Positions 1 to 34,800 of a DNA stretch of 37,338 nt are shown here, piece after piece. The stretch is taken from the IMG/VR virus record IMGVR_UViG_3300020477_000069, positions 1 to 37,338 of that record; one strand, written 5' to 3'. Every line of letters begins with the position of its first letter. The first letter of the stretch is position 1. The stretch is from a virus. The position numbers and the translations under genes were made by a program. The notes below the pieces were generated by a model, which saw nothing but the letters and a program-made list of their open reading frames with translations, did no database searches and had not been told where the DNA came from.

Positions 1-28
1 GTGTGAGGGTTTGCTGCTGCTGATACTA

Positions 29-57
29 AAGATAGTAATTCTATCAGTAGCTGTCAA
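29..57 (-). promoter_or_regulatory. σ70-type promoter, minus strand, reading off the left edge
   Basis: Read on the minus strand, a perfect -35 TTGACA (52-57) is followed by a 17-bp spacer and a -10 TATCTT (29-34). It lies just downstream of the 54-362 gene and overlaps that gene's stop codon, so it should drive a gene beyond the left edge of the window. The spacer holds the inverted repeat GATAG/CTATC (31-35 and 41-45). The same arrangement occurs at 1213-1241. The sequence on its left (1-10) resembles the leader found before other genes of this block. Confidence 0.7.
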
Positions 58-362
58 GGGCCTTCGGGCAAAATTCTCAATTGCCCAGCGAGATACCAGC
101 TGCCGCCCTGACTCGCAGGGCGTTTGAGGGTTTGCACATCCTGCAATTCTACCCTCCTCCAGACCCTCCCCCGTTTTGAAAGGTGAGGCGCCACCGGCTC
201 AGAGCAGGCGTGCCACCCCGGCCGATGGGCAAATCCTTTAGTCGGGTGGTCCTCGGCAGGATACCAGGTTCCTGTCTCGAGGCGCATTTTTCTATTGATG
301 AATAATGGGCCCACTGACCCGTCCTTTTTGGCGCTAAATAATTTCCAGGCTATCGTAGTCAT
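54..362 (-). CDS. Small conserved phage protein with RPGWHA motif, function unknown
   Basis: This 102-aa protein starts at ATG 362, with AAGGAT about 5 bases upstream, and follows the 398-835 gene by 35 bp in the same direction. They are probably co-transcribed, since no promoter is visible between them. It carries RPGWHA (residues 47-52), APHL (58-61), RVW (66-68) and RPASQGG (81-87). I recognise this 'RPG[WF]HA ... AP ... RVW.EVE' pattern from small phage proteins and from segments of large polyvalent phage proteins. No biochemical role is known to me. It is basic and tryptophan-rich, with no membrane segment. Its stop codon overlaps the -35 element of the next minus-strand promoter, so the block is very compact. 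The gene call is strong and the function is open. Confidence 0.75.
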   Translation of the reverse strand: MTTIAWKLFSAKKDGSVGPLFINRKMRLETGTWYPAEDHPTKGFAHRPGWHACSEPVAPHLSKRGRVWRRVELQDVQTLKRPASQGGSWYLAGQLRILPEGP

Positions 363-397: not shown

Positions 398-835
398 TTA
401 TCCTGCAGCCCGAAATGGGTCCCAGCCCAGCCGAGTCAGCTGTGTGATCAACGAATCGGGCGCATTCAGCAAGCCCTCCCCATTGACCCCCGGGTTGCGG
501 GGATCCTCGTTGTATCCGTATGGAAATAGATAATCATGGAGGTCCAGGTCGGCCCTGCTCTCATCATCACCTCGTTCGAGGTATTGTTCATAAGCCTGGT
601 CCGGGTCCTGTTCCTCCTCCTCGCACTGCGCGAGGTAGGCTTCCAACTCCCATTTTTCGAGCTGGTCTTTGGTGCCGACCAGGGTCTCGTCCCCCGTGAG
701 GGGATCGATGTGTACGTGGGGCTGCTCCGATTTCGTGAAGTGGAACCGAAAGCAAGGCTTGACGCTGGCCAGCTCCCACTTGTCTGTCGATGTTGAGAAC
801 TGGCGTTCGATGAATATGTCAATCATTTTTTTCAT
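398..835 (-). CDS. Hypothetical acidic phage protein
   Basis: The open frame extends upstream to 901, but ATG 835 is chosen because GGAGATC sits 6 bases before it. The same GGAGATCAAAATG start context is used by the genes starting at 1166 and 1776. The product has 145 aa. Residues 1-60 look β-rich with aromatics. Residues 70-100 are very acidic (a run of Glu at 72-75, many Asp). The C-terminus (102-145) is rich in Pro, Gly and Asn. No enzyme motif, signal peptide or membrane segment is visible. Its ribosome binding site abuts the stop of the upstream gene (846), which suggests translational coupling within one transcript from the promoter at 1213-1241. I do not recognise the family. Position in a block of small, individually controlled genes suggests an early or accessory host-interaction role, but this is inference only. 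Confidence 0.75.
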   Translation of the reverse strand: MKKMIDIFIERQFSTSTDKWELASVKPCFRFHFTKSEQPHVHIDPLTGDETLVGTKDQLEKWELEAYLAQCEEEEQDPDQAYEQYLERGDDESRADLDLHDYLFPYGYNEDPRNPGVNGEGLLNAPDSLITQLTRLGWDPFRAAG

Positions 836-845
836 TTTGATCTCC

Positions 846-1166
846 CTATTTGTCGAAACTAAAGTGACCCACATAGATCCCGGTTGTAAGATCCTGACCA
901 TCGGGAATGAATTGATCAGCGAGAGCTCTAAACTTCTCGCAAAAAAACGTGACTCTTGGTGCTATCATATCTACCCTGGCGACTGCGCTTACAAACGGGC
1001 TATCCGTTTGATCTATTATTTCGTGGTAGACCGTCTGCCAGTGATACCCATCCCAAATTTGATGCTTGTAAATCCCGAAATCGTAAAAATCTTTATGACT
1101 GGACAGCGCATGTATTTGCTCTATTAGCTCATGAGCAAATATATCGCGTTCAATTGTAGTTTTCAT
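846..1166 (-). CDS. Hypothetical small phage protein
   Basis: A 106-aa protein starts at ATG 1166. The frame is open to 1241, but the internal ATG has the GGAGATC ribosome binding site and sits downstream of a near-consensus promoter whose -35 lies at 1236-1241. The longer form would begin within the promoter itself. The sequence is mixed α/β with several aromatic residues and the motif YHEIIDQTDSPF near the middle. There is no transmembrane or signal segment and no recognisable catalytic motif. It is the first gene after the promoter at 1213-1241 and is followed 10 bp later by the 398-835 gene. Function unknown. Confidence 0.75.
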   Translation of the reverse strand: MKTTIERDIFAHELIEQIHALSSHKDFYDFGIYKHQIWDGYHWQTVYHEIIDQTDSPFVSAVARVDMIAPRVTFFCEKFRALADQFIPDGQDLTTGIYVGHFSFDK

Positions 1167-1191: not shown

Positions 1192-1212
1192 GGTTTGCTG
1201 CTGCTGATACTA

Positions 1213-1241
1213 AATATAGTAATTCTATAAGTATCTATCAA
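1213..1241 (-). promoter_or_regulatory. σ70-type promoter with palindromic spacer, minus strand
   Basis: On the minus strand, -35 TTGATA (1236-1241), a 17-bp spacer and -10 TATATT (1213-1218) are seen. The expected start is near 1206, about 40 bp before ATG 1166. The spacer contains TATAG/CTATA (1215-1219 and 1225-1229), and GATACT/AGTATC (1206-1211 and 1230-1235) flanks it. The inner palindrome differs from that at 31-45 by a paired change (T:A to G:C), which suggests that the dyad is maintained as an operator. Confidence 0.7.
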
Positions 1242-1245
1242 GGGC

Positions 1246-1776
1246 TTACTGACCTAAAAACGTATTATGGGGGGTGTCAGGATGGAATCTATCTATCCGA
1301 GGAGCCCGGATCAGCTTTAAATCTTTTTCCCGATCTAACATCGGTACAATAAGAACACTCCCCTGCTCGTCTCGACCCCAAACAGCCTCATAGCCCTGGC
1401 CCCTAGCAGCCAGCCCTTGGAGCCCTTGCACAGCCCAGGACAATTCGGCGTAATCCATGTAGACTCCGTATTTTGCACCGCCATCATCCTGGGGCGGGAT
1501 ATCCTCGCTCCCATCAAGGATTTTTTCAGCATCTTCCACGCTGACGCCGAGGAGATCTGCAATCTCAACGACCTGCGGGAGATGATACAGATCCTCGACA
1601 TCTATGATGTCTCGCTCATCTATCTCGAGAGCGTATACGTAGATATCTGCATCGGCCTTTGCCGTCATTGTATACGGCAGCGTTGAGAAGCATAGACATT
1701 CCCCCAGGGCTCCGTTCGTGTGAATTGACTCGATCTTCTCGGGGGAGGTGTGATAGACTGTCATCGTATTTCCCAT
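1246..1776 (-). CDS. AcrIF11-like ADP-ribosyltransferase-fold protein (candidate anti-CRISPR)
   Basis: A 176-aa protein from ATG 1776; the GGAGATC site and the shared leader rule out the longer frame to 1866. The N-terminus VYHTSPEKI (7-15), then TNGALGE (20-26), and the C-terminal block AELSWAVQGLQGLAARGQGY (110-129) ending in DEQG (136-139) follow the layout I recall for AcrIF11. That protein begins with FHGS, then GVFGGLF, and ends with a helix plus DEHG; its Asp115 is catalytic and it ADP-ribosylates Cas8f of type I-F Cascade. Here H9 and D136 would be the matching residues. The protein is longer than AcrIF11 (about 132 aa), with an acidic middle insertion (50-100). It has its own promoter (1838-1866). 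Whether it blocks CRISPR or modifies another host protein cannot be told; related ART proteins are widespread in phages and plasmids. Confidence 0.6.
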   Translation of the reverse strand: MGNTMTVYHTSPEKIESIHTNGALGECLCFSTLPYTMTAKADADIYVYALEIDERDIIDVEDLYHLPQVVEIADLLGVSVEDAEKILDGSEDIPPQDDGGAKYGVYMDYAELSWAVQGLQGLAARGQGYEAVWGRDEQGSVLIVPMLDREKDLKLIRAPRIDRFHPDTPHNTFLGQ

Positions 1777-1801
1777 TTTGATCTCCTGGTTTGAGGTGTT
1801 A
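1774..1801 (-). promoter_or_regulatory. Repeated 5' leader with ribosome binding site (copy B)
   Basis: Identical over 28 bases to 1164-1191 and placed at the start of the AcrIF11-like gene. It supplies GGAG six bases before ATG 1776. This repeat is what decides the start codon in preference to the upstream ATG at 1866. Confidence 0.75.
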
Positions 1802-1837
1802 TATTTTTTGTGCTGGACTACGGTGGAACTATTACTA

Positions 1838-1866
1838 AAAGTATCTAATCTGTGAGTAGCTGTCAA
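1838..1866 (-). promoter_or_regulatory. σ70-type promoter of the AcrIF11-like gene, minus strand
   Basis: On the minus strand, -35 TTGACA (1861-1866), a 17-bp spacer and -10 TACTTT (1838-1843) are seen. GAGTAGCTGTCAA (1854-1866) is nearly shared with the promoter at 29-57, but the inner palindrome seen in the other two promoters is not conserved here. This gene may therefore be regulated differently. The plus-strand gene begins 47 bp away, so this is a divergent control region. Confidence 0.7.
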
Positions 1867-1912
1867 CAGTTTTTTGATACAATTTTAAAATTATTTCCTG
1901 GGGGACACGTAA

Positions 1913-2545
1913 ATGTCTGGAGATGAAGAGCTTAGTAAGCTAAAAAAAAATGGAACCCTGCCTAAAAGTGGGGCAAACCCTATGCGCTGCGGTGCAAAAA
2001 CTCGGTCAGATGGGACCTGCAAATCTCCTGCGATGAAAAACGGTAGATGCCGACTCCACGGAGGGAAAACACCGGCACCTGGACCTACCCATCCCAACTA
2101 CAAACACGGCCTTTACTCTGGGGTTATGACGGCCGAGGAGGAGGATGCATTTGATGCATTCGGGGATAGGGGCGAGGTAGATAGAGAGATTGATATGGTG
2201 AGGCTGCTACTGCGTAGGGCTCTGGTAGCGGCACATCAGCTCGAGGAGGTTAGACCAGGGAGAGCTCCCGACCCGGCGCTGGTAACGATGATAGATCGGT
2301 TGACAGGGCGAGTAGGACACCTGGCTAAAATTCGAGCTGAGTTAATCGAGACCCTGGGAGAGCCAGGAGACGAGGTTGAGGTAGGAGAGATGGTCGGCGA
2401 TCGACAGCAGGTAGACCCCGAGCTACGGCTCCCGGTAGATCAGCTGCTAAAAGCCGCATCATGGATAGAGTCTGTGTGTTATGAGTTAGACTATCCTGTG
2501 CCGACTGAACTGATTGCCTGGTGCCGAGGGGAAAAGTTGAAATGA
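1913..2545 (+). CDS. HGG-motif zinc-binding phage protein, candidate small terminase
   Basis: A 210-aa protein from ATG 1913, with GGGGGA about 9 bases upstream. The N-terminal region has C26-G-A-K-T, C36-K-S-P-A-M and GRCRLHGGK (C46, H49). This is the Cys/His pattern of the phage 'HGG' family, usually found just before the large terminase. The rest is mostly helical and acidic (residues 75-175), consistent with an oligomerisation region. Two genes downstream lies TerL, so a small-terminase or DNA-recognition role is reasonable. I cannot show a helix-turn-helix with confidence, and the HGG family is often left as hypothetical. It is the first plus-strand gene after the divergent region. Confidence 0.6.
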   Translation: MSGDEELSKLKKNGTLPKSGANPMRCGAKTRSDGTCKSPAMKNGRCRLHGGKTPAPGPTHPNYKHGLYSGVMTAEEEDAFDAFGDRGEVDREIDMVRLLLRRALVAAHQLEEVRPGRAPDPALVTMIDRLTGRVGHLAKIRAELIETLGEPGDEVEVGEMVGDRQQVDPELRLPVDQLLKAASWIESVCYELDYPVPTELIAWCRGEKLK

Positions 2546-2964: not shown

Positions 2965-3342
2965 ATGCGCGAGGATTTGATAAACTACACAATTCGGGGG
3001 GAGCTGCCTGGCCTGAACGAGGTAATCTCGAAGGCAAAGCGGCACTGGTCGAAGTATCATCGGCTCAAGTCGAGCTCTACCCTGCTGTGTTCAACTTCGG
3101 CCAAGGGGTTGCCTCCGTTAGCTGGGCCCCTGCGGGTTGAGATCGATTGGTTTTGTTCATCTCGGAGGCGGGATCCTGACAATATCAGCTCGGCTAAGAA
3201 GTTTGTTCTTGATGGTCTGATTGATGCCGGGGTATTGACCGATGATGGTTGGAGTCAAATCACAGAATTCTGTGATCGGTTCCACGTCTCGAAGCACGAC
3301 CCGAGGGTTGAGGTGCATCTGCAGGGGGTGCTCGATGTTTGA
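2965..3342 (+). CDS. rusA: RusA-family Holliday junction resolvase
   Basis: The chosen start, ATG 2965, gives 125 aa with GGTGGTAGG upstream. An earlier ATG at 2911 would add 18 residues with no good ribosome binding site, and RusA proteins normally begin close to the YTIRGELPGLNE strand seen at residues 8-19. The catalytic block is clear: RRRDPDN (67-73, Asp70 and Asp72), a lysine pair (78-79), DGL (83-85) and TDD (92-94). It matches the three essential aspartates and the lysine of E. coli RusA. Such enzymes cut four-way DNA junctions as dimers. In phages they resolve branched DNA before packaging, which fits the position directly before TerL. The stop codon overlaps the TerL start (ATGTTTGA), so the two are translationally coupled. 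Confidence 0.88.
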   Translation: MREDLINYTIRGELPGLNEVISKAKRHWSKYHRLKSSSTLLCSTSAKGLPPLAGPLRVEIDWFCSSRRRDPDNISSAKKFVLDGLIDAGVLTDDGWSQITEFCDRFHVSKHDPRVEVHLQGVLDV

Positions 3343-4987
3343 TCGTTTGGCAGACGATCTGCATGGTCGCATGTTTCACTCCCCGCAGTGGGCTGAGTCG
3401 CATCTCTGGATCAAGACTAAGTCCGCTCGGGTTGAGCCATTGCGCTATAATTCTATACAGTGGCGGCTTGAGGAGATACTGCGCGAAGAGCGTCAGGCAG
3501 GTCGGCCGATTCGATTACTCGGCTACAAGGCCAGGCAGGAGGGATTTTCGACCTGGACCGAGAGCGTTATTTACGACTGGATTCACAACGTCCCACAAAC
3601 TGAGGCAGCTATCGTTGCCGATTCACCGGACTCCACGAATAATCTGTATGATATGTTTCGTCGATTCCACGATCACAATCCTAATCCTCGGGAGACAGAG
3701 CACCAGCATCAGAAAGGTCTGAAGTTTCCCGAGCCGCATGGATCCCGGGTGGTGGTCTCAACGGCTAAGCGAAAATATGTTGGCACAGGTCGGACCACGC
3801 AGCTGGCACATCTGTCTGAGATATCAAAATGGGATGACCCTGAGACTACTATGCTGTCTATCATGCAGGGCGTACCAGATCTCCCGGGCACCCTGGTCGT
3901 TGTAGAGTCTACCGCCAATGGTGCTGGGGATTATTTCAATAGCTTTTGGGAGGCGGCTGAGCGGGGAGAGAATGAGTGGCGGCCGGTCTTTTTTAGCTGG
4001 TTTGATCTGCCCGAATATCAGCGGGATCCGACTCTTGAGGATATGGACGGTATTGGTAGCGCTGATCGTTACAATCTCTACCCGGGCGAGGAGACAGATC
4101 TGCTCAAGAGGCATCAGGTCACCGAGGCACAGCTGGCCTGGAGGCGCTGGTGCATCCGCAACAAGTGCCGGGGCAATATTCTGATGTTTCACCAGGAATA
4201 TCCAAGCACCCCGGAAGAAGGGTTTGTTGCATCAGGCAATCCGCGCTTCGCGGTGCCGGTGTTACAGCGATGGCGGACAGAGGTAACGGATCCTCGATTT
4301 GTGGGGGATATTATCGAGTCTGAGGGTAAGCCTGAGCTGGTAGAGTATGAGGGGCAATACGTATATCTCTGGGCGTTTCCGCAGCCGGGGCATCGATATG
4401 CAATTGGTGCTGACTGCAAGGGATCCAGTCCCCTGGGCGATTATAATGCGGCCGTGATCCTGGACAAGGATGTATACCCGCATCCGGTTGTTGGATTGAT
4501 CTATGGGGTGGGAGATGCTGACTCGTTTGCATCTAAGCTTTGTCTAATTGCTAAGTTTTACAACCAGGCGGTGCTGGCGATTGAGAAAAATGGCGTTGGC
4601 GAGGCGGTATTGCAGCCAGCGCTGCGGTTGTATAGTAATCACTATCATCGGCCGGTCAAGAGGGGGGAGCTTGTAGTTCCTGGTGAGGATCCGGGCTGGT
4701 GGACTGGGGCCGGGACTCGGGGCGTTTTGATCGAGGACCTGGCTGCTGCTGTTCGGGATGAGGCTTTGCAGATTTCTGCTGATTTGGTATTAAGGGAAAT
4801 GTTGGCGTTTCATACGGTTCCCGGTCCCCGGGGGGCCGAGGCAAAGCTGGGAAGTCATGACGATTTTGTTTTTGCGTTGGGCATAGCATTGCAGGCGCTC
4901 AATTATTCGGCATTCGATCAGTTGCGTGCGGGGCATTCGGGAGATGCAGTAGTAGTAACGGGACATATGTCGGAGATTTTTCAATGA
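3335..4987 (+). CDS. terL: Terminase large subunit (TerL), packaging ATPase-nuclease
   Basis: A 550-aa protein from ATG 3335, which overlaps the rusA stop; the frame stays open upstream to 3242 but only as a shadow of rusA. ATPase part: deviant Walker A GYKARQEGFST (63-73), Walker B region LAHLSEIS with Glu162, and coupling motif VVVESTANG (188-196). RNase H-like nuclease: YAIGAD (Asp360), LAIEKNG (Glu417) and SHDDF (Asp509/Asp510), giving the full set of metal ligands. It should drive DNA into the prohead through the portal at 6961-9219 and cut concatemers. The C-terminus overlaps the next gene by 4 bp (ATGA). Length and motif order are normal for the family. Confidence 0.95.
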   Translation: MFDRLADDLHGRMFHSPQWAESHLWIKTKSARVEPLRYNSIQWRLEEILREERQAGRPIRLLGYKARQEGFSTWTESVIYDWIHNVPQTEAAIVADSPDSTNNLYDMFRRFHDHNPNPRETEHQHQKGLKFPEPHGSRVVVSTAKRKYVGTGRTTQLAHLSEISKWDDPETTMLSIMQGVPDLPGTLVVVESTANGAGDYFNSFWEAAERGENEWRPVFFSWFDLPEYQRDPTLEDMDGIGSADRYNLYPGEETDLLKRHQVTEAQLAWRRWCIRNKCRGNILMFHQEYPSTPEEGFVASGNPRFAVPVLQRWRTEVTDPRFVGDIIESEGKPELVEYEGQYVYLWAFPQPGHRYAIGADCKGSSPLGDYNAAVILDKDVYPHPVVGLIYGVGDADSFASKLCLIAKFYNQAVLAIEKNGVGEAVLQPALRLYSNHYHRPVKRGELVVPGEDPGWWTGAGTRGVLIEDLAAAVRDEALQISADLVLREMLAFHTVPGPRGAEAKLGSHDDFVFALGIALQALNYSAFDQLRAGHSGDAVVVTGHMSEIFQ

Positions 4988-6906: not shown

Positions 6907-6960
6907 ATCTGATAATGACCGGAGGATTTGTATATCCCCGGCACAAAAGCAAAGTTATGC

Positions 6961-9219
6961 ATGTCTGACTATCCCGTCAATGGCTCTGATGGTCCGACCA
7001 AAGGTACCAAAAGAGCAATTGGCCCCGCCAGGGGCGCATCACAAAAGGCGGATCGAGCCAAAGAGATCAATGAGCTCATCCACCAGGGCGTCTATGAAAT
7101 GGCCGAATGGCGGCGTTTGGCTTTAAAGGCCAGGCGCTATTACCATTCCCGGCAGTGGGATGAGATTGATCGAGATGCTCCCCGTAGACGGCTTAGGATT
7201 ACCGCTAATATAATCCGTCGAGATATTGATAATATGCTGGGCCGGATCCAGGATTCGGATCCGATTATGGAAGCCCAGGGCCGAGGTGGTGAAGACTTCG
7301 AGCTGGCTGATACTTGGCGAGACTTGCTATCCTGGTCGGAGGATTGGACTGGGGAAGAGTATGATTCGGTCAATGAAGTTCGCATGGATGTTATTGCCGA
7401 TGATCTACAGGTCGGCGAGGGCATTGAAAAGGTTGGCTGGGATCAGAGTGAAGAGCAAGGTCAAGGCATGGTGGTCTCTGAATGGATCGATCCCATGTTT
7501 ATTACCTGGGATCCACAATCCCGCTCTCGCCAACGGCGCAATGCTCGGTGGATTTGTGAGTTCAAACCCATCCCGATTGAAGAGCTCGAGGAAGAGTTTC
7601 CTGCACTAAAGGGATCAATCAAGGCTGATGTTCCATCATTTTTGACAGATGTGTATGAGGAAGCTCGTTTCGAGGAATATCGCACGTTAAATCGTGCGGA
7701 TATCGAGGTGGAAGGGGCTCCAACTGACGAGGATAAAGCCTACAGAAAAGAATTCTGGGAAAAGCGGGTCAAATACGAGACGGCTTACTTCGATAAAGAT
7801 GGCCGTCCGATGTCTCGTAGGATTGAGGGGGAGTATATTGAGTTCACTGCGGCCCATTATAAGAAACTTTCAAAGAGGGCCAAAGAGGATATTACTGAAA
7901 GACGGATAAAGACCTATGAGTTGTGGGTCACTGTAGTCATTAATGATTTTATTGCAAGTGAAAAGTTATCAACTTTTGATAAAACTGAGGGTGGTCATGG
8001 GCAATACCCTTATGCCTTTTATTCTGGCACTCGAGATCATTCACAATCCCACCATCATGGTGAGATAGAGCCCCTCCTGGGGATTCAAGACGTTACCAAT
8101 CACAGCACATCCCGGTGGCTCGAAGCTCTCTTTATAGCTAATGCTCAGTTCCTCAAGGTTTATCGGGGATCTATGCCAAAGTCTGAAGAGGGCAAACTGG
8201 ATCAGATCGGCAATCGGCCAATCCAGAAGGTTTTTCTTTATCCGGGTCAGGCTCCTCCTGAATTTGTATCAGCTAATCCCACATCGGCACAGCTATATCA
8301 AAGTGGTTCCCAGTTCCTGATGGATTTGAAAGACAAAATGTCAGGGATATCAGATGTCAATCGTGCTGCTCCAAGGTATGATATGTCTGGTCGGGCGGTT
8401 CGGGCATTACAGGCGGATGCGGATGTAATCTCAATCCCTTTGCGAAAGGGAATTGAGAGCGGTATGAGGCAGGCTACCTGGCTAAGGATGGCAATTATGC
8501 AGCAATTGATGCGGGGAAATCGCAAGCTGCGAATAACACCAAAGGCTGGGGCCGATCCATATAGTCTTTATGTGGGTGAGTCCGATGCAGGGATACAGGC
8601 GCAGTATCAATTGCAACCTGAATTGAAATCTCAGGTAGTCGAAGGCAAGCCTATGACGCAGGAGACTGGCGAATTATTGGATGGTGCCGGGAATCCTACT
8701 AAGCGATTGCTGATTAATGACGAGAATGCGCGGAAGTTTGATTTGAAATTGAAGCTTGATTCAGGGAAAGAGCGATCCAGGGAAGAGCGCGAATCTTTGG
8801 TTCGTTCGATTATGGAATATTTGGGACCAGGCGCTGGTCCTGGGGTCCTCAAATGGGCTGCAAGTCTCTTGGAAGTTCCCAATATGGATAAGCTTTCTGA
8901 AGCCTTGGATGAAGCTGATCAGCAGGCTCAAATAGTAGGTATGGTAGATGAAATTCAAAATAAGGCGGGAATGGGGATACAGGACATAGGCGCCATGATA
9001 GAGCAATTGGCGACTGCAGGGTTGAGTTTGCAGGATGTAATGGGTCTTATACAAGGAATGGCCGGTGGTGCTCCGCCCGGAGGACCAGCAGGACCTCCTG
9101 TAGCGCCTCCAGAAGGCCCTGCTGGTCCTCCGGGCCCTGGTGGTCCTCCTATGCCTCCCCCGGGCCCTGGTGGCCCTCCTGGTCCGCCTCAGCCCCCACC
9201 TGATGGGAGGCCTGTATAA
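6961..9219 (+). CDS. Portal protein (P22-like family) with collagen-like C-terminal tail
   Basis: The start is taken at ATG 6961 (752 aa). TTG 6928 in the same frame lies only one or two bases after GGAGGA, too close to use it, while 6961 itself has a weak site. The exact start is therefore uncertain. The N-terminal half has the P22-type portal pattern: RYYHSRQWD (59-67), LRITANIIRRDIDNMLGRIQ (78-97) and a GEGIEKVGWD strand. The middle is charged and helical, and MSGISDVNRAAPRYDMSGRA is typical of the portal stem region. About 50 C-terminal residues (from roughly 701) are GGPAGPP/GPGGPP repeats that look like collagen or a polyproline helix, not a usual portal ending. The dodecamer forms the DNA channel and binds TerL. 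The stop overlaps the next start (TAATG). Confidence 0.85.
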   Translation: MSDYPVNGSDGPTKGTKRAIGPARGASQKADRAKEINELIHQGVYEMAEWRRLALKARRYYHSRQWDEIDRDAPRRRLRITANIIRRDIDNMLGRIQDSDPIMEAQGRGGEDFELADTWRDLLSWSEDWTGEEYDSVNEVRMDVIADDLQVGEGIEKVGWDQSEEQGQGMVVSEWIDPMFITWDPQSRSRQRRNARWICEFKPIPIEELEEEFPALKGSIKADVPSFLTDVYEEARFEEYRTLNRADIEVEGAPTDEDKAYRKEFWEKRVKYETAYFDKDGRPMSRRIEGEYIEFTAAHYKKLSKRAKEDITERRIKTYELWVTVVINDFIASEKLSTFDKTEGGHGQYPYAFYSGTRDHSQSHHHGEIEPLLGIQDVTNHSTSRWLEALFIANAQFLKVYRGSMPKSEEGKLDQIGNRPIQKVFLYPGQAPPEFVSANPTSAQLYQSGSQFLMDLKDKMSGISDVNRAAPRYDMSGRAVRALQADADVISIPLRKGIESGMRQATWLRMAIMQQLMRGNRKLRITPKAGADPYSLYVGESDAGIQAQYQLQPELKSQVVEGKPMTQETGELLDGAGNPTKRLLINDENARKFDLKLKLDSGKERSREERESLVRSIMEYLGPGAGPGVLKWAASLLEVPNMDKLSEALDEADQQAQIVGMVDEIQNKAGMGIQDIGAMIEQLATAGLSLQDVMGLIQGMAGGAPPGGPAGPPVAPPEGPAGPPGPGGPPMPPPGPGGPPGPPQPPPDGRPV

Positions 9220-11600: not shown

Positions 11601-12716
11601 ATGGCTTTCGTAACCGGTACAGCAACCGGTAATAATCTGACCCGCATTGCGTGGTCCTCGAAGCTGCATCGTGAGACCCAGAATCGTTTCTTTTTTGAGC
11701 AACGAGGTATGGTAGCTCCCGATGTGGGCGATGAACCAACATTTGAACGGCGCGGAGGTGCTCCGATTCGTTCACAGGAAGCTCTCAATGGAAAGAGGGC
11801 ACAAGAGGTGCGCGTAGGCCTCAGACTCCAGCTGACTACGAACCGTAGTATAAGCGGCTCGACTCGTACGTTGGATGCTCAGACTTACGGTACCGCCAGT
11901 ATGATAGACAACGAAGAAACGATGGCCTTGTCGGATTTTACGGCATGGGTAGAGCAGATGAAACATGCAACATCGTTTGATGTTCCTGAGATCCAGGATC
12001 TCCGCACCGAATTCAAGATGACTGTCCAGGCAGCGGATGCGCTGACTGATTGGATGGCCGCTGAGAAAGAGGAAGCGGTATTGGATGCTATTTATAATCA
12101 GCATTCGGCTCACGTTGTAGCGGGTATCTCCAGTGTGAGTGCGGCTAATCCGCCTTCAAATAATCAACAGTATGCTAATGCCGTAGCAGATTCTGCTACT
12201 TTGGCTACTGCTGATAGGTTGGACTCGGCTGAGTTGCGGCGTATGTTCGCTTGGTTTGATATAAATAATATCAATCCAATTTCTTACAAGGGCCAGGATT
12301 GTGCAGTGCTCTTGTGCCATACGCATAATTATAATGACTTGAATGCAGATACGACTTTTCGTTCGGCATTCGAGCAGGCGTGGGATCGCGGCACGGGCAA
12401 TCCACTATTTGATATGGCGGATTGTAAATTTATGAATATTTATATTCATAAGTATAACCGGATCCGTAACGCTGCAAGCGGTGCAAATGCTGCTAATGTC
12501 AGGCGTTGTGTCCTTCTGGGTGCCGATGCTATTGCAGAGGGTGTGACTGCACGCCCCCGATTGGTACGTAGGAAGGAAGACAAATACGAGGACATCTTTG
12601 GTCTGGCCATTAAGGCGATCAATGGATGGGCTCGTGCTGACTTTGCTCCTGTATCTGGCACGACTCTTAATCAGGGTTTGGCCATTTGGGACATTTACAC
12701 CAATTCGTCGATATAG
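11601..12716 (+). CDS. Major capsid (coat) protein, N4-gp56/DUF4043-like
   Basis: A 371-aa protein from ATG 11601, with AGGAAAGG upstream. The N-terminus IAWSSKLHRETQNRFFFEQR, the APIRSQEALNGKRAQEVRVG segment, a bulged loop (TLDAQTYG) and a C-terminal KAINGWARADFAP resemble the DUF4043/N4-gp56 coat family with an HK97-type fold. It follows the scaffold by 34 bp and precedes a strong terminator, which fits the most abundant virion protein. No N-terminal delta-domain cleavage site is evident. It is slightly shorter than N4 gp56 (about 400 aa). Confidence 0.85.
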   Translation: MAFVTGTATGNNLTRIAWSSKLHRETQNRFFFEQRGMVAPDVGDEPTFERRGGAPIRSQEALNGKRAQEVRVGLRLQLTTNRSISGSTRTLDAQTYGTASMIDNEETMALSDFTAWVEQMKHATSFDVPEIQDLRTEFKMTVQAADALTDWMAAEKEEAVLDAIYNQHSAHVVAGISSVSAANPPSNNQQYANAVADSATLATADRLDSAELRRMFAWFDINNINPISYKGQDCAVLLCHTHNYNDLNADTTFRSAFEQAWDRGTGNPLFDMADCKFMNIYIHKYNRIRNAASGANAANVRRCVLLGADAIAEGVTARPRLVRRKEDKYEDIFGLAIKAINGWARADFAPVSGTTLNQGLAIWDIYTNSSI

Positions 12717-25838: not shown

Positions 25839-28800
25839 ATGGGGCGTTTTTCTGATTACTTAGAACAAAACATAAAGAATCCTTCTTGGGATAATTATAT
25901 CAGGCTATACGAAGAGGAAGAGGAAGAGAAGGATCCTTTTCAGTCTACGGTATCTATTCCTCCAGTTACTGCTTCCCCAACTGCAGGCATTAGTCTTGCA
26001 GGTGATGTAGGCAGTGGCCCTCCCGCAAGGCCCTCGACCTCAGTGGTTACTGGCTCCCAGATGGATAATAAGTCTTTTATTCAAGCTGCAGCCGAGTCTA
26101 CGGGGTTTGCTAAAGATCAACCTTTTAGGCGAGGTCTGGTTGATCCCGCACGACAAGGTTACCATGATGTAGGTGTAGCCTTCGGAGGAGCGGTTGAGTA
26201 TATAGGGGAAAAAGCCAATAGTGACTTACTCCGCCGAGGAGGGCGTGCTATTTCCGAGGCAGGCCAGCAAGGAGTAAAAGATGTAAATCTTAAGTCTTAT
26301 GACAGTTTTGTTGGGCAGATGTTTCAGGGTATGGTCAGATCGGCCCCTTTGATGGCTGCTACCGGGGCTGCATCTATACCAGCTACGGGCGCTACTATGG
26401 CTGCAGTTACTGCTGCTGAGGGCACTAAGCTGGGAGCTCGTTTAGTTGGCAGTATAGTAAAGAAGTATCCCAAAGCACCTGCTGCTGTAGTGAGCATGTT
26501 GTCTAATGCAGTTACGAATATGTTCACTGAAACAGGTTCCTATTATTCCCAGGCTTTGGCAGATGGTAAATCTCAGGATCAAGCAGAAAAAGAGGCGGAT
26601 GATATCTTTGCCTGGAATGCTGCTACCTTTGCTACTTCTCTTGCTGAAAGTGCCATACCAATGGGGCTGGGTACAAGGGCTGCAGTTGCGACTATCACGG
26701 AGAGTACTGAGGAGATTTATCAGGCTATTGGAGAGAAGTTAATAAGTAAGCAGGCTACTTGGGATGAGATACTATCATCTATAACTAATACCCGGAACTG
26801 GGAAAGCATTGGAACAGGAAGTAGTGGGAAGTCCTGGGAGCTTTTTAGGGAGCTGGGATTAGCTGGTGCAATTGGCGGGGTAATGGGTGGTGCCATTGCG
26901 ACAGGTACGGGTCGAGCTCAAAGTATAGATGAAATGACCCGCACGAAGGTTGAAAAAGATGAGAATTTAAGCCAAACTGTCATAGGTAAGAAAGAGCGGA
27001 ATGAATTAATTAATAGGATTAAATCTAAGGGTCTTGTTCCCAGTAGTTTTCTGGGAGAGAATTTCCCCGAGTCTTCACTTGGGCGAATGTCTCAACAGGA
27101 TTACGAGAATGCTTTAGGTATTCTGGAGGTGGTTGATGCGGAGACGGACACCGATACAGGCCCGAGGACCCCCGGAGATTTGCCTATGGCTCCGGGATCC
27201 CAGTGGGATGAAGGTAGTAACAGGCCAATATATTCAGTAACAGGCCGAGAATCTAAACGGCTTGATCTAAGATATCCAGAAGATAGTCCCCCTTCCCTTG
27301 AAGAGCAGGAATTGCTGACCAAGCAAGCCTTTCGCCATAGGAACAAGAAGAGGGAATGGTATGCTCCTGCAACTGCGGAACGTATGGACCTGGTGGCCAT
27401 GCTTACGGGGGAAGATGCATCTGATGTAAGTATGCGAGTGGCTGCTACTGGCACGAAGGCAGAGGGCGGTATCGAGCCTGTTAAGGAGATGCAAGATCGT
27501 TTCGTTAAACGACAGGCCGAGATAACAGGGGAATCAGCAGAGGATATTGCCGGCAGGAAGCCCCGATGGGAGAGCGGTCCACTAAAAGTAGAAGAGGGAG
27601 AGCCGACTGATGTGCTCCTGCAGAAGGCCTTAGAAAACCCAGCGGAATTCCGTTGGGAGACACAAACGGATCATCGCTGGGAGGGATATTTCAAGATAGA
27701 AGGTGCAGATCCCTCGGAGTCTCGCCTTTACCAGGTAGAGGTAATAGACTCGCAATGGACTGATGACTGGGAGTTCTCGTTTTCTTTAAATAGAGTGGGG
27801 GAACAAAGGATTTCCGGATTGAGGGGGATGCCGAGTATGGGCGTGACTGGACATGGCGATGCCTTTAAGGTCTTTGCTACTGTGGCCAGCATGTTTGATG
27901 ATTTTGTAGGCTCAAAAAGTCCCGATTCTATGAACTTTCAAACCAGTGATGATTCACGAGGAAGGAAGAGGCTTTATAATAGGTTCGTTAGGTTAGCTGC
28001 GGAAAAGTATGACTACATTTATGAGGCGGAGGAGGCTGGTTGGGCTCGTGGCGGCGGCGGTAAATTCCAGATTAAGAAAAAGACTGCGTTCGATTCGGCG
28101 GCGGAAAGGCGGCTCTCTCAGCCTGTTTCTTCAAACCGGGAAGATAGACTGGCGGCTGCTATTGGCGAAAGGGACTACTGGGAGAGCAGGTGGGGAAGAG
28201 AAGGGTCCCCAGAGGCTGAGGCTGGCTATGATGATGCGTTGGCCTATTTGGCTCGGATGGAGCAGGATGCTGAGGACTGGAATGAGGGGCAAGGCATCTA
28301 TAGACCTGGCGCTGAATTTACGGCGCAAGAGCTGGTGGATATTCGCCGGGAAATCCCGGAGTTTGAGCCAGTGCCTGCAGAATTTAGGGACGCAGAAAGG
28401 CAGCGTATTGAAGAATTAGATAGGGAGGACGAAGAGGTCTCGGCGGAGATGGGGAGGATAAGGCGCATCCAACGAACTCGTCGATCTCGACAGGACAGGG
28501 TAAATAATATTCTCAATCGGGAAGATTATAATCGTGAATTAAGGATGTCTCAACACGCTGAAGGATCGTATGCATCTGGTACTGCTGATCCAGATTTTAT
28601 TAGAAGCCTCGAAGAGATGCAAGAGAGGCATCGTCGGCTATTTCAAGGGCGGAGGGCGACCTCAGGCTTGATGACTCCCGAAAATTTGGATTACAGTAGG
28701 CCTCTCCCAGACCTGATAGACGAACTTGAGTCTCTTGATAGAATGGAGGAGGAAAGCAGTCGGGGATTGTTTAGAAGGTTGTATATGCAGGCGGAACGGG

Positions 28801-31800
28801 ACCGGCGTGAGGAAATAAACAGAGCCATTGCTGTTGGTGGGTCATTGCCCGAATGGCAGCAAACCGATCACAGCCATTGGGAAGATTTGCGGTCACAATT
28901 GGGTGCCAGGGATGTGGAGGAAATAAACAGAGCCATTGACGATGGGTTAGACGAGGGGGATATGGCGAGGAGTGATTTTGCTGAATTTGGCCCTGGTCCC
29001 CAAGAAGCTGCTGCAGCTGGTGAACGGGCGGCTGAGAGACGGGCTGAGAGACGGGCTGAGAGACGGGCACAGGCGGAAGCTCGAATGGGTGGCCTTCAGC
29101 CCCAGCATCGCCAGGAGGGGGAAGAGCCTCTGGAGGCCAGGCGGGAAAGGTTGGCACAGCGGCGCATAACGTCACTCGTTAATGACTTTATTGAAGCTAC
29201 TCCCGAGGGGGCAACTGAGTTTAATATTTCGGGGTATCATCGAGCATGGAAGACAGCAAGAGATGAAGGGGTAATGGCCTTACCTCTCGATGATGCTGAT
29301 GACCGTACGCCAATGATAAACTATGCCCGCGAAAATAGAATAACGCATTCTGATTTTTTCTCGCATCTCCTTGAGGAGGAAGGTATTAATAACCTGCGGG
29401 AGGGAATGCATTCAGGAGAGGCGTATGATAGGGATCCAACGGCAGGGCCCGAGGTCCTTTATCAAATCCCTCATGAGTTGACAAAGGCCCAAGATATAAA
29501 AACGCTCCATGGGCTAAGGGATGAAGATATACCTGATAATGATTATGAAAAAACGGAGATACATAAGAAAAAAATAGTAATGGGCACCACTCGGAAGAAT
29601 GCTGCTAAGGGGATTGCCCGTCTTGATGAGATTGAAAAGGAAGAGCCTGCTCCCCTTTCAAGTGAGAGAGCCTGGCACCGTTTCATGACCAAGGTTAAGG
29701 GAACTCCGCAGTCTACATTATTCCCATCACGAGCTGGTCGTATATACAGAAATCCAGACGAAGCCCTGCAGCCTCGTAGGGAGATGGATGATAAGCAGAA
29801 AAGTATGGCCGATAATGGCCTTTCTGCTGGAGATGAGGTCCGCCGGTCGTATGTAGATAAAAGGGCACGGGAGGAGGATACAGCGAGGTTTTTCTTATGG
29901 TCTATTTTATCCAGGGCCCAATCGGTCTATCCCCATGAAAGTGGAGCAATGGTGGGCATTGTGGCTGGTGTAGATCGGTTTATAAAAGAGGCCAAGGATA
30001 AGAAGGGAAAGGTGGACCTTGTTAGATTTGAAAGTTTGCCCCAAGAGGTTCAAGATGAATCTTGGGCTAAGACTATTAGAGCGAGAAGAGAAGAAACGAA
30101 AGGAAAAGGGAGAAAGCCACCGAATCCAGAGGTATGGCCTGAGTATCGTCGTTGGGTTCAAGAAACTCTAAAGGATAATCCTGGTGCCAGTACCATCTCG
30201 AATATGAATGATTTTGGGGAAAAGTTATTAAGGAAGATGTATACCCCTATAGATCATGGAGAGTATAAAGGTCGCTCTGGCATGGAATTAATACATGAAT
30301 GGCTGGGTAGTGATATGTCTGGCCCGGAGATACGTAGAGAGTTTCATAAGATAAACGATAAATTTGGAATAAATAATAAGATATTATCCTTTACGCTATT
30401 AGTCACAGGACGTAAGGATGTCTTTGTGATAGATCGAGTACAAGCGCGTAATTTGTTTGATGGTCGAAATCGTTTTAAGGATGGAGAGCTGTCAACGCAA
30501 GAGATCTATGATGGTTATGAGGAAAGTTTTGCAGAGTATAGAAAAAATAAAGGCAAGAGTAAGGCCAAGCCCTTTGGGTCTATTAAACCCTTATCAGGTG
30601 AGCCTAAAGCAGGAGATAAGGGAAAGAGTGGACTGGTCTCAGAATTAGATAATCTTTGGGGCTTGGCATTGCAGGAAGGAATAGAGAAAAACCTGGAGAA
30701 ATCCCTTCAAGATGCTTATATTAAGGGGTTCGATGAAGGGCTTTATGATGCCCCTGTTGATCCGAAAGAAGTATTAGGCCGGTATCATTGGGAGTCCTGG
30801 GTTTGGGATTCAAAGCAGCAGGTTGGGCATGGCTCTATAGAGGGCATCGCCCGAATGGCCGCAAACCCAAAGCTAAGTGCTGCGGAAGCTTTTGAGGGAG
30901 TTGGCGTCAGGCATGGACGGTTTCAGGAAAGGGGGTATGGAACTGTATTTGCCAATATTGGTGGCAATTATAAGTATGGACTTGAGGACAGTAAAGGAAA
31001 TTGGTGGACGCTTGATTTAGCAGGGCAGCAAAAATATAAAAAGGTATTAGAGAGCACAGCCAAAGAAGGTAGTAAAGTCAAAGGGCTGGATGGGCGCATA
31101 GTTCACATAAATCCTATACTTCCTCAAGACTTTACGGTCTCTAAACAAGAAAGGGATTGGTTACAAGATGGCACAGCAAACACCAAAGAACGAGACAAAC
31201 TCCTCAGTGTCATTGGAATACTTTCAGAAGATGCAGAATCTGCAGTCTTCAACAGGATTACCTATGGCGCCGATGGAGCCAGAGATCGGCCCGGAGATAA
31301 AGCGGGACGATATGACCTGGGAGGACCAGGTAAGGATACACGAGCTGGACGCGATAGAATACGGGGTGATTCCCGAGGAGTAGAAGGTCCAGAAGGTCCA
31401 GAGATATTAGAGCAGCGGCCTATCGGTGAGACCGCTGCGGTAGCTTCACCGGAAAAAGCCAGGTCAGATCTCCAGGCAGCAGGCCTGAACCCCAAATATG
31501 CTGACTCTCTGGCATCCGTAAGAAAACTCACAATTGATCAGCTTGATCGAGCCCAGCCTGCATCTCGGGGTCCTGACTCACCAATAGGCAAGGTGGCCAG
31601 GTCTCCGGGATTTAGGGCTTGGTTTGGTAAGAGTAAGGCCGTTGAATCAGATGGCCTTCCCTCCGTTGTTTTTCATGCCACTCAAGCCCCAGAAAATTTC
31701 CATCGATTTACCTCTCTTGATTTTGGGATCCATGTCGGTGCAGACCCAACCCAGGGAGAGGATTTAGTTCGGATGGGGAAGGCTTACCGGACTGCTGGGG

Positions 31801-34800
31801 ATCTATATAGAGATCATTCTCGAAACATCCCTCTATTTATAAAGGTTGAAAATCCCTTACGTTTAAGAGACCGAGGGACCTGGGAACAGGCGGAGACTCT
31901 TGAGGATCTTAAAGATGCCGGGGTTTTAACGGTAGATGATATAAGGATGCTTGAACGGGAAGGTGCTTATGGACACAAGGTAGCCAGGCATTCTTTTGTA
32001 AAAAGGAAAATTAAGGAAGCTGGATATGATTCTATTGTTTATCTCAATCGCATGGAGGGCGTTCGCCTAAAGGGAGTAAGGGAAGGCGTAAAGCCTGATT
32101 GGCTTGGGCGAGACTTGCCATTTGATAAGGGAATGGTAATGTCAAGCGCTGAGGAGTATCTTGCCGCCGCAAACCCAGATAAACAAGTTACTGAGATTGA
32201 TGAATATACAGATGAAGAATTCCTCAAGGCCTTTGATGCTCGTGATTCTTATATCCTTTTAGATCCCACTCAGCTAAAGAGTGCTATTGGCAATGAAGGA
32301 ACTTACGATCCATCTGACCCAGATATACTTCGCCAAGAGGGCGATCTCTTACCCCCAGACCCCCAGGGACGAATCGAATTTTATGCCAATCAGCCCCCGA
32401 TTGCACGCCTATTTGAACGTGGGGATCCTTCGACTCTGGCCCATGAAACCGTTCATTGGTGGCGCAGAGAGCTTACTCCCGAGCAATTAAAGCCTTTTGA
32501 GGATTTTCTGGGCGTTACACCTGGTGAAAAATGGACCATAGACCAGGAGGAGCGCTTTGCCTGGGCAGCTCAGGGTGTGCTTATGGGGGATGTAAAAACT
32601 ACAGACCAGTTGCCAGTAGGGATCCGTGGTGCCTTCGAGGACTTTAAAGTCTGGCTCCAGAATATATACCGGCAATTGAAGGGAAGGCATGACTTTCAGT
32701 TCAATCGGGAAACTCAAGCCTTATTTGAGGATCTGATAGGCGGGGCTGAATCTATGGCCCAGATCCAGGCCGGATTCCAGGAAGGTGCAGGACCTCCAAT
32801 TACAGGTACCAAGGCAGAGGTTACTGCAGGCCAGACCCTACGACAGGCACGACAGCAAATCGTTATGGCTCAAACTGAGGATGATATTGAGTCTGCGGTA
32901 GAAAGATATACAGATCTTGTTGCAGATGGACGGGCCCCTGAATCTACTTTGCAGAGTCTGTTAAATCTGGCCGAAAAGCAACAAGACAAGATGGCCACAG
33001 CCCAATCTGTGGATACGCCGCCTGAGGCGGCTCCTGAGCCCATAGGAGCCCCACGAGAGGGTATACCCCCACAGCCAGAGATCGACGCTCAGGAGGGGGA
33101 TGAGGAGCTTGAGGGGGCTATTACGGAGACCTTCCGCCCTGATCCTCCCAAGGGAGCAAAAGAGCGCAGATTTCCCCAGAGTTTAGAGCGTCAGGGATTG
33201 GTTGGTGGAGACAATATATACTATCGCCCAATTTCTAATATCGAAACAGAGAACGAGGCTCGAGATTGGATCCGTAAGGATGGTGTTGATGCCGTAGCAT
33301 TGGCCCTTGATGAGGAAGAAAAGCCATCGGCCAAGCATACAGCGGCGGCTATTGGGGTAATGGCTACCTATCAGCATGAGGCGGACCAGCTGAGGGCTCA
33401 AGGGGAAGAAGTAGCAGCAGATGCCAAGTTGAGTAGGGCTATATCTTTGGCGGGTAAAACAGCTCAACGGCTGACTGAGATGGGCCAGGCAGTGCAGGCA
33501 GCTTCGATGATTGCTCGAATGTCACCAGAGGGCGTGACTCTTTGGGCGCAGCAAAGGATTAATAAAATAAATGAGGCAACTCCCCCTAAAGCAGAAAAAC
33601 CTTTAGTAGAATTGAAGCCTGCCGAAATTACCCAATTGCGCCGGTTGGCTGAAAAGACTCAGGAATGGGAGGAGATCGGCGGTCGTGCTCGTGAAATGTC
33701 TGAAGTAATGAGCCAGATACAGGAAGGGGCCGAGCTGTCCGAGGATCACGTAGAAGCCTTAAGAGGTTATGCTGAGCAAATCCGTCAATTGACTGGATTT
33801 CCAGAGCCTAAAAAAACAGAAGAGGCTCCTAAATCCCGCAAGCTGGCCCCTTCCACCAATATCTTGATGGGCCGGTTATCTCGAGCAGAAGAAGCAGCCA
33901 AGCAGCGATTAAGGGAGCGGGGCATAATCATAGGGGCAGGTATACCTACTGACTTGATTGGGGATTATGCAATTATCGGTGCAGCTCGATTGGCCAAGCG
34001 AGGGATTAAGTTTGCCGAGTGGTCAACCCAAATGGTTACTGAATTCGGTGGATCTATAAAACCTCATCTTCCTATTATTTACGATAGGGCAAAAGAGCAT
34101 CTTACTCGTGAGCGCAGGAAGGCAAGGGAGACAGCCCAGCAAGCTCGGAAGATTGAAGAGTTACTGGCTAAGGTTGATGCGGGTCAGGTCCCAGAAGATA
34201 TTGACACAGAAGTATTAGGTCGGGCTGTTAATTCTTTGAGGCGTTTGAGTGGCGACGAGCAGGTCGAGGCAGCGCAAGAAGTGCAACAGTTAATTAGCAT
34301 GATGGAGCCTGTAGCTACTTTGCGGAAAGTTTCGACCGCTCAAACAGTAGCTCAATTGCTTAATCCCAAGACGATTCTTACCCGTAATCCATTAGGCAAT
34401 GAGTTGTTTTATCGAGTTGAACGATTGCGTCGATACGTTGATACCCCGATTGATATAGCTCGATCTAAGATAACTGGAGGCCCTCGGCATGTTACCTTTA
34501 AGAAGGGTGGGCAAGGAGGCTATTGGCAGGGCTTAATGAAGGGTGCGCGATTGGGCTGGAAAGGGATAGCCCCCGGGGCCTTGACCACGGGGTGGGATTT
34601 GGATGTCAATAGAGGTCCATCCTTCAGGGGTGGCAAGAATCCCTTGACCTATCTTGAAAAGCTTATGGGGGCAACTTTAAGAGGATTTGATTTTGCGGCT
34701 TATAATCGAGAGTATTTACAAACTTTGGGAGAATTGGGAGAGGTAGAGGCTATTAATAAAGGCCTGAAGGGAAAGGCCCGGAAGGCCTTCGTTGATAACT

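Follow-up and report, generated by a model that had tools for sequence, protein, structure and literature searches.

Does a small minus-strand gene close to the left end of an IMG/VR virus record encode a relative of AcrIF11, a viral enzyme known to inactivate, by chemical modification, one type of CRISPR defense in bacteria, and would its product act on the same target as AcrIF11Pae1 (PDB 6KYF), which ADP-ribosylates N250 of Cas8f? The window analyzed here is the whole stretch of 37,338 nucleotides, which carries no end repeats. The initial annotation had pointed to an AcrIF11-like protein encoded in an accessory block of small genes, and the candidate gene is indeed one of four small genes that form a minus-strand block; they run opposite to the rightward phage genes and point away from the series of head and tail genes of an uncultured tailed phage (Table 1).

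Table 1. Coordinates of the features discussed in the text
Position	Strand	Feature	Basis
8..61	-	Promoter-like repeat, TTGACA, 17 nt, TATCTT; reads out of the record at its left end	Sequence
54..362	-	Neighbor gene, 102 aa, PHROG 12224 (unknown function)	Searches
398..838	-	Neighbor gene, 146 aa, without phage relatives found	Searches
846..1166	-	Neighbor gene, 106 aa, own promoter and leader copy, without known relatives	Searches
1192-1245	-	Promoter-like repeat copy 5' of gene 846-1166	Sequence
1246..1776	-	Candidate acr gene: AcrIF11-family ADP-ribosyltransferase, 176 aa; putative NAD-site residues H9, Y35, D136, E137	Sequence, profile, model
1774..1800	-	27-nt leader of the acr gene; contains the Shine-Dalgarno and has the start ATG as its last three nt	Repeat match to 1164-1190
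1817..1870	-	Promoter-like element 5' of the acr gene; TTGACA, 17 nt, TACTTT; third copy of the repeat, diverged	Sequence
1913-2545	+	Weak small-terminase match	PHROGs
3242-4987	+	Large terminase	
6928-9219	+	P22-like portal, 7e-42	Profile
11601-12716	+	Major head protein, 3.3e-25	

The coordinates of the acr gene are exactly those of the open reading frame call. An AGGAG Shine-Dalgarno sequence is located 6 nt 5' of the ATG, within a 27-nt leader (AACACCTCAAACCAGGAGATCAAAATG) that recurs with zero mismatches 5' of the adjacent gene in the block; the chance expectation for an exact 27-nt match of this kind is 0. Because the leader is repeated exactly, both genes, as well as the acr start at position 1776, are supported, although the relatives of the protein mostly begin at or near the alignment position of its Met5.

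With respect to family membership, the profile search that had been proposed in the initial annotation matched the protein to the NCBIfam equivalog model NF052490 (AcrIF11_anti) along the complete length of the model (positions 1-142 of 142; 2.1e-26), at 93.6 bits against a curated cut-off of 50 bits, and the same model is matched by all 16 members of an alignment comprising this protein and its viral and Aliivibrio relatives. Comparison with solved structures gives a concordant result: in a phmmer search the single sequence matches AcrIF11Pae2 (PDB 8DWQ, entered as 'H3 protein') at 3.3e-18, and the alignment profile recovers 8DWQ at 9.3e-48 and 6KYF ('AcrF11') at 5.9e-11. Moreover, against a profile of the 15 relatives built without it, the protein scores 135.8 bits and the best of 1000 shuffled sequences 5.3 bits, so that the likeness to these relatives is far beyond chance. 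The match to AcrIF11Pae2 extends over the full length of the sequence, although identity is only ~31%, and identity to AcrIF11Pae1, with which the fold is shared, drops to 19%; overall, the protein is no more than 30-45% identical to any relative. In PHROGs it falls into PHROG 11282 (unknown function); the members of this group and the proteins of the Vibrio anguillarum phages VaK and H20 belong to the same family by sequence but are ~37% identical and have other neighbors. Thus, the profile matches, the comparison with solved structures, the modeled fold and the catalytic residues (see below) concur with the original identification: the protein is a distant but clear AcrIF11 relative, that is, a divergent member of a known family.

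The structure prediction and Foldseek search, likewise proposed earlier, indicate an ADP-ribosyltransferase (ART) fold. The AlphaFold2 model (pLDDT 86.5, pTM 0.81) is confident outside the C-terminal tail and a loop near residues 91-110, and Foldseek places 8DWQ (2.4e-7) at the top of its PDB matches and 6KYF (1.8e-5) second, with moderate TM-scores of 0.57/0.60 and 0.42/0.51, respectively. Helices at residues 66-76, 80-87 and 109-126 of the model make up the variable helical region between the strands. Among the next matches are the RES toxins MbcT (1e-3) and VPA0770 (4e-2), which raises the question of whether the protein could be a RES-type NAD-degrading toxin, or another NADase, that depletes NAD and leaves Cas proteins unmodified. 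These matches are well behind the AcrIF11 structures, AcrIF11 being much closer in both fold and sequence; furthermore, a Pfam search up to E = 1 yielded zero matches, RES included, and we recognized no antitoxin gene beside the acr gene. A toxin of this type is accordingly a highly improbable reading.

The residues required for activity in the experimentally characterized homolog are conserved as well. The YHTSP and DEQG motifs noted at the outset map to residues 8-12 and 136-139, and H9, Y35, D136 and E137 align with H20, Y46, D146 and E147 of AcrIF11Pae2; in that protein, the double mutants H20A/Y46A and D146A/E147A both lose ADP-ribosylation of Csy1 along with phage protection (PMC12421852). 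The catalytic acidic pair, D115/E116 in AcrIF11Pae1 and D146/E147 in AcrIF11Pae2, corresponds to D136/E137, and the role of D146/E147 is played in AcrIF11Pae1 by D115 (PMC12421852), so that D136, the residue originally suggested for mutation, is the counterpart of both D146 and D115. All 20 aligned sequences share H9, S11, D136 and E137 without exception, and Tyr35 is kept in every one of the 20 except AcrIF11Pae1. S22 and E25 of AcrIF11Pae2, which are dispensable (PMC12421852), have S11 and K14 as their counterparts. That the gene is a decayed, non-functional copy could be argued from nothing beyond the divergence from the characterized members, whereas the frame is intact and full-length, the ribosome-binding leader is clear and all putative catalytic residues are kept; decay is the least probable of all the explanations considered here.

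Does the protein retain the target of the family? It had been described as about 40 aa longer than AcrIF11, with an acidic insertion on account of which the target might differ. AcrIF11Pae2 itself measures ~150 aa, and the surplus over it consists mostly of a C-terminal tail of ~20 aa that is modeled with low confidence and predicted to be disordered; this tail and a loop of ~8 aa before the last helix are private to the protein and set it apart from AcrIF11Pae2. The helical region, which is thought to select the target and shows more variation across the family than any other part (PMC12421852), is 68 aa long, compared with 58-75 aa in the other aligned members, similar to that of AcrIF11Pae2 and longer than that of AcrIF11Pae1. 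Its net charge, -0.16 per residue, lies within the range of the 19 relatives (-0.09 to -0.22), which rules out an unusual acidic insertion. As the extra length is mostly tail and loop and the helical region does not exceed that of the relatives in acidity, nothing points to a changed target, and the earlier argument is not borne out. A drifted specificity, in which an ADP-ribosyltransferase of the AcrIF11 fold would modify another Cas subunit, another defense protein or the host machinery, would nonetheless be compatible with the low identity to all relatives, the variability of the target-choosing region and the private loop and tail. The score well above the equivalog cut-off, a helical region within the family range in both length and charge, and the low confidence of the tail, as is seen for disordered regions, argue against such a drift, which we regard as unlikely. 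We consider it very probable that the gene encodes an AcrIF11-family mono-ADP-ribosyltransferase that modifies the Cas8f of a host type I-F system and so allows the phage to escape CRISPR.

A single-sequence scan of the viral collection with the protein found no relatives, whereas the alignment-based scan identified 18 viral contigs that carry them. Vibrio anguillarum phages, including the two named above, encode additional relatives annotated as hypothetical proteins, and others are plasmid-borne in Vibrio chagasii and Alteromonas mediterranea. Among bacterial genomes, a relative was found in one Aliivibrio genome out of the 330 of its family, and in the class-level scan the same genome was alone above the cut-off (1 of 369). 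This genome also carries Cas8f/Csy1, which lends little weight to the proposed target, given that Csy1 is present in 45 of the 326 genomes of the family. Several contexts in this set deserve a separate mention. In two viral contigs (L013:6007-6990 and L019:6007-6990), the AcrIF11-like domain is followed in the same frame by ~185 C-terminal residues without a Pfam match, possibly a two-domain AcrIF11. On the Vibrio chagasii plasmid p1 (L004), the AcrIF11-like gene lies among small unknown genes, with genes for DndB and for a DNA cytosine methyltransferase within ~6 kb.

Among the neighbors of the acr gene, Vibrio, Pectobacterium and Cronobacter phages encode proteins related to the product of the 102-aa gene (best 61%), as do 14 viral contigs; the phage relatives point tentatively to a gammaproteobacterial host. 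A single-sequence scan of the viral collection with the 106-aa protein returned zero relatives, and PADLOC detected nothing on the minus-strand block. The first AcrIF11 described reportedly had a linked aca gene, encoding a helix-turn-helix (HTH) protein. None of the three neighbors here matches any family, HTH families included, but the record ends 53 bases past the last of them; next to one relative (L022), an HTH-like gene is located just downstream, with a score below the Pfam cut-off.

The acr gene had also been credited with a strong promoter of its own. A TTGACA -35 element is present, but the -10 element (TACTTT) is poor and the element is one of three related copies, so that the promoter is not exceptional. 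The consensus of the three copies is TTGAYA, a 17-nt spacer and a weak -10. Each of the two right-hand copies precedes a minus-strand gene, and the gene that the leftmost copy would serve falls beyond the contig; the related repeats suggest co-regulated minus-strand units. A TACTA-N4-TAGTA palindrome overlies the -10 in two copies, the acr copy being degenerate only, and was considered as a candidate for a shared repressor site. A block with repeated promoters and two genes without known relatives could conceivably serve host takeover, the AcrIF11-fold enzyme modifying a protein other than Cas8f; to this scenario we assign a slightly lower probability still than to target drift as such.

As expected of AcrIF11, which is phage- or plasmid-borne, the gene shares its record with a terminase, a P22-like portal and a major head protein. 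The phage itself appears to represent a little-sampled, undescribed lineage of tailed phages: tblastn with the portal and capsid proteins against 50,697 phage records gave no match, neither the portal nor the terminase recovered relatives as a single-sequence query on the viral collection, and the capsid scan found one, at 66%, in a contig (L025) that does not reach the accessory block because it begins ~3.8 kb before the capsid gene. Rfam and tRNA scans were empty. More than a quarter of the record is occupied by a single plus-strand open frame (25839-36233, 3464 aa), whose only matches are weak ones to PHROGs without a name.

Under the favored reading, modification of Cas8f, the acr gene's own promoter would drive its expression early in infection, and the enzyme would transfer ADP-ribose from NAD+ onto Cas8f (Csy1) in the host's type I-F surveillance complex, at the position equivalent to N250. 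The modified Cas8f would then be blocked in PAM and target-DNA binding, and the phage would escape CRISPR. By analogy with the characterized members, we infer NAD use, the Cas8f target, early expression and the benefit to the phage alike.

The biology of the AcrIF11 enzyme is already published, and the present finding is a well-founded annotation that does not amount to a new type of system. It extends a well-characterized family of enzymatic anti-CRISPRs to an undescribed lineage of tailed phages, and the adjacent small genes with shared promoters and leaders are candidates for other counter-defense functions.
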